The notes: a model not told the origin generated them from the sequence alone. Numbered from the stretch's first letter, positions 19,817-24,810 are shown. The stretch is 57,305 bases of DNA from Armatimonadota bacterium (GCA_025354405.1 JANXMY010000066.1:1-57305); one strand, 5' to 3'. Numbers and translations are program-made.

Positions 19817-20797
19817 CTAGTTGGTTCCTTGGGCGAGAATAAGGTTTTTGGGAGAGTTTAGTAAATCTACAGCGAGACGGTTGAAGGCTTGTGACTGCTC
19901 ATCGTGCGGCAGCAGGCCACTTTTATCCAGAACGATCAGCTCAGCACGGGAATTTGCCCCCAGAAAAGCCTCGGCATCGGAGAGCGGGGTGAGACGGGCT
20001 TCGCGGCCCCAGACGATCTGTACTGTCTTCTGCGGCAGGTTTGGGAAGATCGCGGCGACGCTGTGGTTCAGGTGTCCGCTGAAAAACGACGGAGGGGCAT
20101 TCTGCGACCCATATTGATGCGTTGCCGTAGAGTAGTGGTCCACCAGCGCATCATCTACATAGGAGGGATCGAAATAGGTCTGATTCATTAAATAGTAGCG
20201 CAGACCGGGTTTCGAGCAGAGACCGTTATAGATAGCCGTCCCCAGCAGAGGCGCGTGTGTGAAGCCGTAAATTGCTTCCGACTGGGCATCTGGGGCGTCG
20301 GCGAGATGGTGGAAGCCAGTCGGGCAGACCAGCAGCAGACTCTCCACGAGATCCGGGTGGTCATGCGCGACCTGCACGGCATAGGCGGTCGCCAAAGAAG
20401 AGGCGATCAGCGTGCAGGGCTCCTTCACCACTTCGCGCAGGAACTGCTCCAGCTGCTCGATGTACTGCGCGGCAGTGTATTTGATGCGTGGCTTGTCTGA
20501 GAGCCCGAACCCCAGCCAGTCTGGGGCATAAACCTGCGTATGCTCTGACAGCGCATCGAAGTTCTTGCGCCACTCCTGGCCCGAGGCACCGGCGTAAATC
20601 CCATGCAGCAGTACGACAGGCTTCCCTTGCCCCTGCTTCGTGTAGAAAATATCGCCGTATGGCCCCGGCCAGAATCGCCCGTCGCCACCCAGGGTGTTGC
20701 CCAGGGCCTTCGACTGCGAAAACACGGCATTATTGGCAGCTGCGACCGCTGCGGCCCCCACCCCGGCCCAGAGCAGAGTTTTCAGAGTTTTGTTCAT
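19817..20797 (-). CDS. Alpha/beta hydrolase with N-terminal membrane anchor or signal
   Basis: About 326 residues from the ATG at 20797, chosen for its GGGGAGATTATC ribosome site; a longer frame to 20869 has none. A hydrophobic N-terminus (about 5-25) is followed by the alpha/beta hydrolase fold: oxyanion motif LLHGIYAG (about 63-70), nucleophile elbow IASSLATA (a variant of GxSxG), and DWLGFGLSDKP. The catalytic Asp/His near the C-terminus are probably in the IVWGREARLTPLSDAEAF and SGLLPHDEQ stretches. It is divergent from the RiPP-like locus. A role in processing that product is possible but unproven. Confidence 0.78.
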   Translation of the reverse strand: MNKTLKTLLWAGVGAAAVAAANNAVFSQSKALGNTLGGDGRFWPGPYGDIFYTKQGQGKPVVLLHGIYAGASGQEWRKNFDALSEHTQVYAPDWLGFGLSDKPRIKYTAAQYIEQLEQFLREVVKEPCTLIASSLATAYAVQVAHDHPDLVESLLLVCPTGFHHLADAPDAQSEAIYGFTHAPLLGTAIYNGLCSKPGLRYYLMNQTYFDPSYVDDALVDHYSTATHQYGSQNAPPSFFSGHLNHSVAAIFPNLPQKTVQIVWGREARLTPLSDAEAFLGANSRAELIVLDKSGLLPHDEQSQAFNRLAVDLLNSPKNLILAQGTN

Positions 20798-20857
20798 GAT
20801 AATCTCCCCGGCAAGGCCGGATGATAAAATATAGCTGTGCGTATTATACCCATAAAG

Positions 20858-20887
20858 TTGACTTGGCATGATATTTGCAGTTACTAT
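20858..20887 (+). promoter_or_regulatory. Promoter of the RiPP-like precursor gene
   Basis: TTGACT (20858-20863), 18 bases, TACTAT (20882-20887), about 40 bases before the precursor ATG. A minus-strand TATAAT (20843-20848) serves the divergent hydrolase. Confidence 0.6.
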
Positions 20888-20906
20888 CTTTGTACAGATA
20901 GTACAA
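20883..20906. promoter_or_regulatory. Overlapping palindromes at the RiPP promoter (candidate operator)
   Basis: Two interlocked inverted repeats overlap or follow the -10. ACTATCT (883-889) pairs with AGATAGT (896-902), and TTGTAC (890-895) pairs with GTACAA (901-906) around AGATA. They look like a repressor site. No regulator gene is adjacent. Confidence 0.55.
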
Positions 20907-20925
20907 TATAAAAGGAGGAATAATT

Positions 20926-21045
20926 ATGACAAACTCTCAAACCGCCCTGCAGGCACCTTATGCGAAGCCCGAAGTGACTTCGTTGACAGAAGCCGAAGTG
21001 CTAGGCTCGATCGAAGCCTGGGGCATCTCAATTCATCGGGTTTAG
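20926..21045 (+). CDS. RiPP (lasso-like) precursor peptide, candidate
   Basis: A 39-residue peptide behind a very strong AGGAGG site. The leader contains Y12-A-K-P15-E-V17, the YxxPxL/V recognition motif of lasso-peptide leaders bound by PqqD-like proteins. If cleavage follows E22, then T21 stands at -2 as in lasso precursors, and E30 is core position 8, able to close an eight-residue ring on A23. The core would be A23-V39, with a hydrophobic tail containing W32. It also has S28 and S35, possible targets of the kinase-like gene. Reading as a precursor is inference from these features and its neighbours. Confidence 0.72.
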   Translation: MTNSQTALQAPYAKPEVTSLTEAEVLGSIEAWGISIHRV

Positions 21046-21063
21046 TGTTTAGTAATTAAGTTG

Positions 21064-21115
21064 CCTTTCCCACGATGCTCAAGTGTGTGCTTTGCTCTTG
21101 GGCACCGTGGGAAGG
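21064..21115 (+). promoter_or_regulatory. Long hairpin between precursor and modification genes (attenuator candidate)
   Basis: Left arm 21064-21083 and right arm 21097-21115 pair over about 19 bases with one mismatch and a 13-base loop. No T-run follows. Such structures often let the precursor mRNA outnumber the enzyme mRNA, either by partial termination or by protecting its 3' end. Confidence 0.6.
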
Positions 21116-21146
21116 TCCCGGTCCTGAATATCATCAAGAAAACGAG

Positions 21147-21458
21147 ATGTCCTCGCCCATGGAGTTTACGAATTTTGTGCTGCCCAGGCAGCGTGTGCTC
21201 CCCGGCCGTCCGGCTGGTGGAGATACTTTGCTCCGCGACCCAGACACGGGAACAGTGCATTTCCTGAGTCCTACCGCGACCGTGGTCTGGGAGTGCTGTG
21301 ACGGCAAAACATTGGCATCCGAGTGCCTGGCTCGGCTGCGCACCACCTTCGCAGTTCCCGAGGAAACGGATATTGCGGCTGATCTTACTGAGACACTGGA
21401 AGACTTTCGGCGGCGCGGCTTGCTTGAAGAGACAGCGAAGATATCCGATGCAGGATGA
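21147..21458 (+). CDS. PqqD-like peptide-recognition (RRE) protein
   Basis: About 103 residues from the ATG at 21147; an in-frame ATG at 21075 lies in the hairpin region and is unlikely. The fold pattern matches PqqD/lasso B1 recognition elements: LPRQRVLPGRPAGGDTLLRDPDTGTVHFLSPTATVVWEC, then a helical KTLASECLARL and a C-terminal DLTETLEDFRRRGLLEE helix. Such domains bind the leader peptide and present it to enzymes. It ends inside the start of the kinase-like gene (11-base overlap), so the two are translated together. Confidence 0.82.
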   Translation: MSSPMEFTNFVLPRQRVLPGRPAGGDTLLRDPDTGTVHFLSPTATVVWECCDGKTLASECLARLRTTFAVPEETDIAADLTETLEDFRRRGLLEETAKISDAG

Positions 21459-22425
21459 AGCTTCCTCCATGTATGGCCCCCTCTGCGTGGGCCTCGCACA
21501 CTGGCGGGGTTATGTCACGGCTGATACGGAAGAGGGACAGCAGCTGATCAGCCGCGGTTTGTCGGAATGGACAATGCCGCTCCGCGACGGACCCATCAGT
21601 ACTCTCCATGTTGACCTCCTCACACACCCTCTGCCCAGGCTGCGTTTGATGCGTAAGGGCCAGCAGGTGGACCTTTCATCATTCCTGACCGGACCTGGCG
21701 GAAAACGATTTGTGCCGACCCAAGAGGGAAAGAGACTTCTTTATAGTGATCTGGCACTCGGGGAGGATACCCCGACACTTGAGCTTTGCGGACAGGAGCT
21801 GTGTATCCTGCGCCCAGACCTTTGGCTTTTTTATGTCGAGCATCTGCTGACCTGGCAAATGCTGACTGAATCCTCAATCGCGGCCCTGCACGCCGCCGTC
21901 TGCGCCGTAGACGGCGTCGCGCTCGTCATCATCGGACCAAGCGGTAGTGGCAAAAGTACACTCTGCTGGGCACTCGCTCAGGAAGGTGCAGACTATTTCA
22001 GCGATGAATGCGCATTCTTCGATGTGATGACCCACCATCTCTATGTTCGTTCTCACCAGGCACGATTGCGGCCCGGCGGGGTCGCTCTGCTTGACGCGCC
22101 TCCGGAGAGTGTCGATTGGCAAGAGACTAAACCTGGAGACCCCAAAATAGCGGCGCCGTTTTCCGCCCCGCAGAATCCCTGTCCGGAAGAGCGTTCGCTG
22201 CTGCTGTTCGTTCAGGGATTTGCAGAGAGACCGTGCCTGACACCTCTGCGTGGCGGCGAGGCGGCGCGGCAGATCACCTGCCTAATGGGCTTCGGAGACC
22301 CTTCTCCGATGGCGAGAATGGAAACGGCAGCAGATATCGTCTCCCATATCCCCTGCTTGGCACTGACGATTGGGCCGCCGCGCGAAACGGCGCAAATGCT
22401 GCTTGCCTACGCCGGAAGTCTCTGA
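21448..22425 (+). CDS. HPr-kinase-like protein (HprK-related kinase of a RiPP-type locus)
   Basis: About 325 residues from the ATG at 21448; the frame extends upstream to 21298 but would overlap PqqD heavily. The C-terminal half carries an HPr kinase-like P-loop GPSGSGKST (163-171) and an acidic site YFSDECAFFD (183-192), as in HprK. The N-terminal half (1-140) is not the usual HprK N-domain. Related kinases in paeninodin-type lasso clusters phosphorylate the precursor, and related orphan kinases sit beside PqqD genes in other phyla. No HPr gene is in the window, so the peptide is the likely target. Confidence 0.8.
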   Translation: MQDEASSMYGPLCVGLAHWRGYVTADTEEGQQLISRGLSEWTMPLRDGPISTLHVDLLTHPLPRLRLMRKGQQVDLSSFLTGPGGKRFVPTQEGKRLLYSDLALGEDTPTLELCGQELCILRPDLWLFYVEHLLTWQMLTESSIAALHAAVCAVDGVALVIIGPSGSGKSTLCWALAQEGADYFSDECAFFDVMTHHLYVRSHQARLRPGGVALLDAPPESVDWQETKPGDPKIAAPFSAPQNPCPEERSLLLFVQGFAERPCLTPLRGGEAARQITCLMGFGDPSPMARMETAADIVSHIPCLALTIGPPRETAQMLLAYAGSL

Positions 22426-22440
22426 TAGGAAGTATCTGAC

Positions 22441-22899
22441 ATGGCCAACAGACCGAACAATACCCGCAGCACCTGCGCCGCTGTCATTCGGCACCCTCAG
22501 CACCTGCAGGCCCTCTGTGAGCTGTGGCGCGGCAGCCAGAAGGATGTGTGGCTGACATTACAGGGTGGGAGTATGATGCCTACCTTTCGTGCCGGCAGCC
22601 GCCTGCGGCTTCGCTGTTGTCAATACGTCCCGGTACCGGGAGACGTTATTGCTTTCCGGCGTGGAACTCATTTGATTGTGCATCGCCTACTGAGTGTGGA
22701 TCCCGAGGGTTGTCTCATTTGCCAGGGGGACGCGAATGCCGCGCCGGACGTGCCGATCACGCTCTCGGAGGTCGTCGGCCTGATCGTGGAAGCGCGGCCG
22801 CCTACGTTCCCCGCTCGCCTGCACAGAGGCGGGATGCGCGTCAAACGCGCTCTGAGCAGAATTCGTGCTCTCCTTTTTTCGCGGGGGAATGACCAATGA
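22441..22899 (+). CDS. S26 (SipW/ER-type) signal-peptidase-like protease, soluble
   Basis: This 152-residue protein has the serine motif QGGSMMPTF (S44), GDVIAFRR (67-74), and LIVHRLLS with H81 in the position of the usual lysine. The later ICQGDANAAPDVPI matches the GDaN motif of SipW/ER-type signal peptidases, which use a Ser-His dyad. No transmembrane segment is visible, unlike true signal peptidases. In this locus it may remove the leader peptide, taking the place of the lasso B2 protease. That role is inference. The next gene overlaps it by four bases. Confidence 0.78.
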   Translation: MANRPNNTRSTCAAVIRHPQHLQALCELWRGSQKDVWLTLQGGSMMPTFRAGSRLRLRCCQYVPVPGDVIAFRRGTHLIVHRLLSVDPEGCLICQGDANAAPDVPITLSEVVGLIVEARPPTFPARLHRGGMRVKRALSRIRALLFSRGNDQ

Positions 22900-24182
22900 C
22901 CAGCAGCTTGCTGACCTCCTCTTTGATCATGCTGGCGAAGAGCGGCGTCCAGGGACAAGTTGGACCCGAACCGAAGTACGCCACCCTGAATCCCGCCGCA
23001 TGGAACGAGCTCACAGCCTTAGCGGAGTCCCATGGATTGCTCGGCATGATGGGTACCGGTGCAGAGGCGGCGAATCTCATCATCCCCGAAAAAACCACAG
23101 CACTTCTCCGCCGCACGCGGCGAATCAATGCGATGCGATTCGACAGAGCCTGGCCGCAAATCGCCGAGATCGTGGAAGCCTGGACGCAGAAAGACATTGA
23201 GTCGGTTCACCTGAAGGGCGTATTCTTCGCGGCTCGCTACTACCCAGCTCCAGAGATGCGTGCCTTCGGGGATATTGATCTGCTGATCCTGCCGCACGAG
23301 CGCGATCGGGCGGCAGACGTACTGATCCAGCTTGGGTATCGCAACACGGATGCTTTGGACAGTGGCGGAAAAGAGTGGTGCCTGGCGAACCATTTCCACT
23401 GGAAGTTTATGCGAGAGGGTGCGTTCCCCGTCGAGCTGCACTGGAAGCTGACATTTTCCTTTCCAGCGACGCCTGCCGATTCAGATGCGATTTGGGCACG
23501 AACTTTGCGGATGAGCAGCCCTGCAGGCGAAATTCTCTGCCTGGCACCGGAGGATGAAGTCCTGGCGCTGGCAGCGCATATGACCAGTCATTGCTTTCGG
23601 CTGCCGCTTCGCTGCCATGCAGATATTATGGCCCTGGTCAGGAACTTTACTCCTGAACAGTGGGACAATCTCTGGGAACGAGCAGCCCAAATGGATCAGC
23701 AGCGGGACATTCTGGCTGTTCTCGGTGTGGGGGAACGACTAGGCCTGACTGATCTCCCGGTCACAATGATGAATCGGATAGCCGCGGACCGCACTTTAGA
23801 CCTGAAATTCCTGGCGGATTATGCTCTCAGTTGCCCCTTTGTGGCTGCCCCGGAGCGCTGGCTCGACGTTCAAAATGCACCGACACGGAGAGCTGCCCTA
23901 GGGCGAATTTGGCACGTTTTTTTCCCCCGCTATACACATCTCTGGACACCCCAGGGAGAAGTTCAATCGAAAAGCCGTCCGGCTCTGGTATACGCAGCTG
24001 CCTGGGCACGGCGGGCCGCCCGCCTGCTTGGACGCCTGCGAGACCTGCCTCAGCTTGCCGCCGATTTCCAGCAGACCACTCGTGTCCACAAGATGTTTGG
24101 GGATCGGCGCAGGCTGAAAGCCAGCGGAGAACAACGAGCTGACCTGAATTCATACGAGGAGACGCAAATTAAGGTACAATAA
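22896..24182 (+). CDS. Nucleotidyltransferase-fold protein (NTP_transf_5 type)
   Basis: This 428-residue protein has the motif HLKGVFFAARYYPAPEMRAFGDIDLLI (105-131), the G-D-I-D metal-binding site (125-128) and K107 of the NTP_transf_5 family. The C-terminal part is helical and Trp/Arg-rich. Homologues recur in lasso-peptide and PqqD/HprK-type loci, with poorly known function, perhaps nucleotide or phosphate transfer to the peptide. It is the last gene of the coupled block. The next gene follows after 49 bases. Confidence 0.8.
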   Translation: MTSSLLTSSLIMLAKSGVQGQVGPEPKYATLNPAAWNELTALAESHGLLGMMGTGAEAANLIIPEKTTALLRRTRRINAMRFDRAWPQIAEIVEAWTQKDIESVHLKGVFFAARYYPAPEMRAFGDIDLLILPHERDRAADVLIQLGYRNTDALDSGGKEWCLANHFHWKFMREGAFPVELHWKLTFSFPATPADSDAIWARTLRMSSPAGEILCLAPEDEVLALAAHMTSHCFRLPLRCHADIMALVRNFTPEQWDNLWERAAQMDQQRDILAVLGVGERLGLTDLPVTMMNRIAADRTLDLKFLADYALSCPFVAAPERWLDVQNAPTRRAALGRIWHVFFPRYTHLWTPQGEVQSKSRPALVYAAAWARRAARLLGRLRDLPQLAADFQQTTRVHKMFGDRRRLKASGEQRADLNSYEETQIKVQ

Positions 24183-24231
24183 TTGGGCAATTCTCAATCA
24201 ATACTTAAAGTTCACATTTCGAGGAGAACGT

Positions 24232-24810
24232 ATGGCACTTACGGAACGATTTTACGGGGCGAACACGGCGGGAACGGCCCGCCCCATACAGGACTTCGGC
24301 CTCAGTGATACCAACGCCTTGTATCAATATACCGCCAAGCTTCGGGTCAAAGGCCTGCTGGTCATCGTATTTTTCGACACGAATTCAGCCCCATCCGTCC
24401 AGGCCGTCGATATCGTGCAGGGATGGACCGCTGATTTGCCGACTCAGAAATGGACCGCACTGGCCGTCACGGAGGGCGATCGGCCAGAGATGGCTCAGTT
24501 TGCATCGCAGCATAGCCTATCCAATGTCTCAGTCCTGCTGGATCATGAACTGTATCAAACACGTCAGTGGGGTGTCTCCCACCTGCCCAGCATCTATCTC
24601 GTTTCTGGCAAAACAGGCCGGGTGCTGCATAAGATCATGGGATTGGACGAGGCCGCCCTCGATGGAATGAAGCTGATGCTGCACGACGAGGTCGGAAAGA
24701 TTGTCGCAGCAGAAGCAGCCGCAAAGAAAGCATCAGAAGAGAAAGCCGCGGCCGATGCCGCCGCCAAAGCCGCCGAAGCATCGAAAGCCGCCGAAGCATC
24801 GAAAGCCTGA
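24232..24810 (+). CDS. Thioredoxin-fold protein lacking the redox cysteines
   Basis: This 192-residue protein has a redoxin-like core. Strand LLVIVFFDT is followed by S52-A-P-S55 where C-x-x-C should be, and the cis-proline loop SHLPSIYLV (P119) is intact. It has no cysteine at all. The C-terminal 40 residues are a highly charged Ala/Lys/Glu helix with an AAEASK repeat. It cannot be a disulfide oxidoreductase; a chaperone-like or scaffolding role is possible. It follows the nucleotidyltransferase by 49 bases behind GAGGAG, so it may belong to that operon. Confidence 0.7.
   Translation: MALTERFYGANTAGTARPIQDFGLSDTNALYQYTAKLRVKGLLVIVFFDTNSAPSVQAVDIVQGWTADLPTQKWTALAVTEGDRPEMAQFASQHSLSNVSVLLDHELYQTRQWGVSHLPSIYLVSGKTGRVLHKIMGLDEAALDGMKLMLHDEVGKIVAAEAAAKKASEEKAAADAAAKAAEASKAAEASKA

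Follow-up and report, generated by a model that had tools for sequence, protein, structure and literature searches.

The best-described relatives of the locus reported here belong to the linear polyphosphorylated peptide (LPP) family of ribosomally synthesised and post-translationally modified peptides (RiPPs), known from the lppAKBSDN cluster of Paenibacillus alginolyticus (Popov et al., Nat Commun, May 2026; PMC13381572). Its parts are a YxxP precursor, the RiPP recognition element (RRE) LppB, the HprK-like kinase LppK, the SipW-like protease LppS, the nucleoside triphosphate (NTP) transferase LppN and the transporter LppD; LppK adds several phosphates to core Ser3, LppS (catalytic S29, H68 and D93) cuts off the leader aided by LppB, the precursor is conserved as far as the phosphorylated serine, and the family, whose role is unknown, is said to be confined to Bacillota (PMC13381572). 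Related enzymes serve the lasso peptides paeninodin and pseudomycoidin, where a His-Lys-Asp-Asp motif is essential in the kinases, and where gene deletion showed that PsmN, an NTP_transf_5-type protein, is needed for the hexose on the phosphoserine of pseudomycoidin (PMC9266682). Here we describe a five-gene cassette in a 57,305-nucleotide stretch of DNA from an Armatimonadota bacterium (GCA_025354405.1, JANXMY010000066.1:1-57305; hereafter the window), which is probably an LPP-like, self-contained and horizontally moving RiPP cassette outside Bacillota, whose RRE, kinase, S26 protease and NTP transferase would form a pathway to a linear phosphopeptide.

The five open reading frames (ORFs) were verified on the + strand between 20926 and 24182, and domain searches matched their families, bearing out an earlier note made from the DNA alone that had listed them as a RiPP-type locus. 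They encode a 39-residue precursor peptide (20926-21045), a PqqD-like RRE resembling LppB (21147-21458, with 21147 as the best start; PF05402, E=6e-11), a putative HprK-like peptide kinase resembling LppK (21448-22425), a soluble SipW-like S26 protease that is a candidate leader peptidase of the LppS kind (22441-22899), and a nucleotidyltransferase-fold protein resembling LppN and PsmN (22896-24182; NTP_transf_5, PF14907, E=1e-47). The PqqD and kinase genes overlap by 11 bp, and the S26 and NTP_transf_5 genes by 4 bp. The same note placed a strong promoter ahead of them, which overstates the case: the possible sigma-70-like site (20858-20887, + strand; TTGACT-18-TACTAT) is weak, with a 9/12 consensus match and an 18-nt spacer, and five such sites occur in the region against 1.7 expected by chance. 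An Rfam search returned no match inside the cassette.

The short ORF at 20926 is a real gene, beyond chance and under protein-level constraint. AAGGAGG stands immediately 5' of its ATG, and a strong Shine-Dalgarno sequence is present at all three precursor genes, those of the window and of G023 and G025, genomes that represent two further genera of the family. With the window peptide as sole query, a whole-genome search found the G023 counterpart at E=1e-5; the G025 match was weak (E=0.18) but placed directly upstream of PqqD. Codon-position differences among the three peptides amount to 12:25:49 for positions 1:2:3, and their alignment shows Y12, P15, S19, E22, E24, L26, S28, G33 and S35 as invariant, with conservation ending at Ser35. 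The earlier note had staked its RiPP reading on a short ORF recurring in homologous neighbourhoods, and this check, once run, showed the ORF conserved there (G023, G025). The precursor leader (YAKPEVTSLTEAEVLGSIEAWGIS), which contains YAKP, follows the pattern YxxPxxxSyTExELLxSMExWGxS, in which YxxP is kept and the remainder is unlike the LPP motif. Between the precursor and the enzyme genes lies an RNA hairpin (21063-21116, + strand; z = -3.7, core stretch -4.0), with counterparts 3' of the precursor gene in G023 (z = -4.2) and G025 (z = -3.6, for a stretch picked by eye). Hairpins in this position, allowing excess production of the precursor, are common in RiPP clusters.

A predicted cut after Gly33 ([AV]-[WF]-G) is consistent with the signal-peptidase -3/-1 rule for each of the three peptides, and would make Ser the second residue of every core: ISIHRV (6 residues) in the window, ASGGGPYY (8) in G023 and GSGSPAPIP (9) in G025. 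The alternative cut, after Ser28, is nearer the LPP spacing from Pro and would leave 11-14 residues (IEAWGISIHRV in the window). A 17-residue product, as first proposed for this peptide, is less likely than one of about 6-9 residues.

Judged by their residues, the kinase and the S26 protease both look active. The kinase matches HprK_rel_A (TIGR04352) at E=3e-12, with 46 bits against a curated cut-off of 200, and its His148, Lys169 and Asp186 are invariant in 17 homologues; only the His-Lys-Asp of the lasso kinase motif could be placed, as Asp186 is directly followed by Glu and the fourth residue was left without a match. Its structure model (pLDDT 88.6) matches phosphoenolpyruvate carboxykinase (PEPCK) and HPr kinase (HprK/P) in fold. 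Two scans of GTDB genome contigs for relatives of the kinase yielded nothing beyond a pair of weak P-loop matches (Paracoccus and Bartonella), and a literature search on the HprK-related kinase and HPr-rel-A found no paper. The protease matches archaeal-type signal peptidase I (SpI; TIGR02228, E=8e-12, under the curated cut-off), contains no stretch sufficiently hydrophobic for a membrane span, and carries Ser44, His81 and Asp97, invariant in 16 homologues; the structure modelled for it (pLDDT 81.5) has fold matches in LexA, SipA and the human signal peptidase complex. In the NTP_transf_5 protein, G125-D126 and D128 of a GDxD motif are invariant, as is VELHW. Alignment to LppB (PDB 9x8z) shows that its Tyr-binding Asp70 is kept in all three RREs (window, G023 and G025).

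The distribution of the cassette is all-or-none. Of the seven genomes of the family, G000, G023 and G025 have the peptide, the S26 gene and a close homologue of the kinase, and G020, G021, G022 and G024 have none of the three. The G025 copy (L018) has the order NTP_transf_5-peptide-PqqD-kinase-S26, while in G023 (L017:9488-14677) a P450, a polyketide synthase (PKS)-type acyltransferase and two further genes stand between the same five; these two gave no Pfam or NCBIfam match and appear terpenoid-synthase-like by eye. In G024, a sister species within the window's genus, the flanking alpha/beta hydrolase and thioredoxin-like genes are adjacent with no cassette between them, and blastn shows collinearity with the window at 83% up to 20796 and again from 24213, with ~150 bp replacing the 3.4-kb cassette. 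Because G024 is collinear on both sides, the cassette as a whole (no strand assigned) is placed at 20797-24212, outside of which lies the thioredoxin-like gene at 24232. The latter had been considered as a sixth member and was rejected as host backbone, since it adjoins the hydrolase gene at the G024 empty site. In G023 and G025, the flanking genes are on contigs other than the cassette's. All-or-none presence together with the empty site therefore shows that the cassette is one discrete portable unit; the empty site, in a single species pair, may reflect gain in the window's lineage or loss in G024. Weak peptide-profile matches in three further genomes (G231, G188 and G168) proved to have unrelated neighbourhoods when opened.

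From this architecture, conservation and set of catalytic residues, we infer the chemistry, the cleavage site and the function as follows. The 39-residue precursor would be made in excess, in keeping with its strong Shine-Dalgarno sequence and the hairpin ahead of the enzyme genes, and the PqqD-type RRE would bind Y-A-K-P of the leader, as suggested by LppB and lasso RREs. The HprK-like kinase would add one or more phosphates to a core serine, most likely the invariant Ser35 of G-x-S, and the RRE would present the leader to the soluble Ser-His-Asp protease, which would remove it, most likely after Gly33 ([AV]-[WF]-G / x-S). The NTP_transf_5 enzyme may then decorate the phosphate with a sugar or nucleotide, as its homologue PsmN does in pseudomycoidin, leaving a very short product that would stay linear.

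Linearity is expected because the host genome, which is 96% complete, lacks a cyclase gene: it gave no Asn_synthase (PF00733) match, and neither it nor G023 gave a Transglut_core3 (PF13471) match. The absence of cyclase and B2 protease, first remarked in the earlier note for the neighbourhood of the cassette, thus extends to the genome so far as it is complete. That note also recognised pieces of paeninodin clusters here (precursor, leader-binding domain, kinase and nucleotidyltransferase), a resemblance that we confirm, and it considered a lasso pathway with its cyclase and B2 protease elsewhere in the genome. Such a pathway would account for a kinase, RRE and NTP_transf_5 protein common to paeninodin-type clusters (PMC9266682; L098), but the searches of the 96% complete genome, and an S26 protease that could act as alternative leader peptidase, leave it an almost negligible chance. 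Its other proposal, a phosphorylated or nucleotidylated linear peptide, has become the best-supported reading, whereas its view of the arrangement with a SipW-like protease as undescribed is superseded by the LPP family (PMC13381572). A plasmid search gave no match for the S26 protein; plasmid matches to the NTP_transf_5 protein and kinase, where opened, were lasso-type loci, in Paenibacillus cellulosilyticus and, with B2, asnB and PqqD, in Halopiger xanaduensis.

Searching with a profile built from the S26 proteins of the three cassettes revealed more soluble S26 genes in many families of the phylum, next to genes for a kinase, PqqD and/or NTP_transf_5; some of them are accompanied by radical S-adenosylmethionine (SAM) enzymes and by short peptides of the YxxP type (L019, L093 and L096). 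Because soluble S26 genes accompany these partners across so many families, and are in some cases fused to them, our data suggest that RiPP pathways of this phylum make general use of an SpI-type leader peptidase. Fused ORFs join S26 to NTP_transf_5 at L081:4622-6562 (G203) and L095:1-1686 (G215) and S26 to PqqD at L082:8598-9407 (G282); they support a working link among the three proteins. At L096:6725-11545 (G205), twin YxxP peptides (MKEQKRRKYEAPKLTVVPLRAEERFLICAKDDNATCVLVMS and a relative) are accompanied by PqqD, radical SAM, HprK-like kinase, S26 and NTP_transf_5 genes, and by this gene content the locus is a radical SAM RiPP locus that appears to use the same protease module. Another family of the phylum carries a radical SAM/SPASM maturase, an HprK-like kinase, an S26-like protein, PqqD and a divergent NTP_transf_5 protein (L019:8222-13786 in G253, L100 in G254), with a peptide (MKWSKPVVKSYKEKELLAKLAAKAQTHEDGHLDQ) whose leader resembles that of the window cassette; a weak peptide-profile match in G254 belongs to this radical SAM type of locus, common to both genomes. 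Some S26 proteins beside kinase and/or PqqD genes have a C-terminal extension that is GNAT acetyltransferase-like by eye (L079:7722-8771, L080:2320-3420, L090:8538-9665, L093:8133-9239 and L096:7956-8918).

HprK-related kinase, PqqD and NTP_transf_5 genes also occur together without S26, at L025:4565-9388 (G024) and L029:8378-11123 (G023); the G024 locus is exosortase/PEP-CTERM-like, has a distant kinase and puts the same set of enzymes to another use. By analogy with these exosortase/PEP-CTERM-type loci of the same phylum, the cassette could serve exopolysaccharide or the cell surface, its short ORF acting as a translational leader, and a TIGR04353 score of 32 bits, close to the cut-off of 35, would agree with such a role. 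We regard it as very improbable, given that L025 and L029 have neither an S26 gene nor a YxxP peptide, that the kinase scores far below the HprK_rel_A cut-off, and that the short ORF is constrained at the protein level.

The LPP-like reading is favoured by the LPP core gene set, a YxxP ORF in three genera, the all-or-none distribution with the empty site in G024, the invariant catalytic residues of kinase and protease, the fold matches, the retained Asp70, the lack of cyclase and B2 genes and the end of precursor conservation at Ser35. Several points weigh against it: the LPP leader reads YxxPxVLxHQxIxFETxxS, whereas the cassette leader lacks VLxHQxIxFET after YxxP; LPP clusters carry an MsbA-like transporter, and none adjoins the cassette at any of its three loci (window, L017 and L018); LppB Asn33 is retained in G023 and G025, but a Ser takes its place in the window RRE; the RRE profile scores 14.6 bits for LppB (9x8z), 18.3 for TfuB1 and 13.2 for PqqD, and likeness to LppB is not above that to lasso B1; and LppN was without effect or activity in the published heterologous host (PMC13381572). 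The leader motif, the absent transporter and the weak likeness to LppB would also suit a distinct RiPP family that has only the enzymes in common with LPPs, in which other residues are modified or the S26 protease cuts elsewhere (e.g. after Ser28), with no phosphoserine peptide of the LPP kind; the S26-kinase-RRE-NTP_transf_5 loci of the same phylum that carry radical SAM enzymes likewise indicate a module not bound to LPP chemistry. This alternative seems unlikely to us in view of the intact kinase active-site residues and the invariant Ser with which precursor conservation ends, and in two of the three genera the cassette brings no additional modifying enzyme.

It is conceivable, though we hold it doubtful, that the cassette represents a RiPP lineage of its own, either convergent with the Bacillota LPPs or ancestral to them, in which a portable module of RRE, kinase, SpI-type peptidase and NTP transferase acts alone on 6-9-residue cores here, and elsewhere is joined by radical SAM enzymes or by the P450, the PKS-type acyltransferase and the two unassigned genes of the G023 locus. 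If so, phosphorylation combined with SpI cleavage would not be peculiar to LPP. For the LPP-like reading, which we prefer, an LPP-like cassette of five genes within 3.4 kb in a diderm, which one sister species has and the other cleanly lacks, suggests a broader occurrence of the design than had been assumed. The cassette also offers a minimal system for the roles of the kinase, NTP transferase and SpI-type leader peptidase, and its very short predicted core should make the product simple to synthesise and look for.

Among known systems, HPr-rel-A (TIGR04352/TIGR04353) likewise pairs a PqqD-like protein with an HprK-related one beside a nucleotidyltransferase; assignment to it was rejected as both scores are under the cut-offs (46 vs 200 and 32 vs 35 bits), and the cassette has in addition the S26 protease and the precursor. 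The SynChlorMet cassette (NCBIfam) has PqqD-like ScmD and kinase-like ScmC in common with ours, with weak model matches scoring far under the cut-offs, but contains the radical SAM genes ScmE/F, of which our cassette has none. The paeninodin and pseudomycoidin lasso systems (PadeK, PsmK and PsmN; PMC9266682) have an RRE, an HprK-like kinase and NTP_transf_5 in common with it and also place their phosphate on Ser, yet have WxxP, a lasso cyclase and a B2 protease where our cassette has YxxP and an S26 protease, with neither cyclase nor B2 in the genome. Compared with LPPs, which are from Bacillota and have a core of 45 residues, the cassette has a core of probably 6-9 residues and a host that is not of Bacillota by its diderm gene content; the window encodes LptF/LptG, an LptC-like protein and a polysaccharide export protein, and because of these genes we take the organism to be a diderm with lipopolysaccharide-type export. 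Because its leader consensus and transporter miss the LPP definition, and likeness of the RRE does not decide the clade, the cassette is LPP-like, a new variant rather than a proven member. It nonetheless has in common with LPPs a YxxP precursor, a discrete RRE, an HprK-like kinase, an NTP transferase, the absence of a cyclase and a patchy presence, as well as an SpI (SipW-like) Ser-His-Asp peptidase adjoining the RRE, whose S44, H81 and D97 are like S29, H68 and D93 of LppS in kind.

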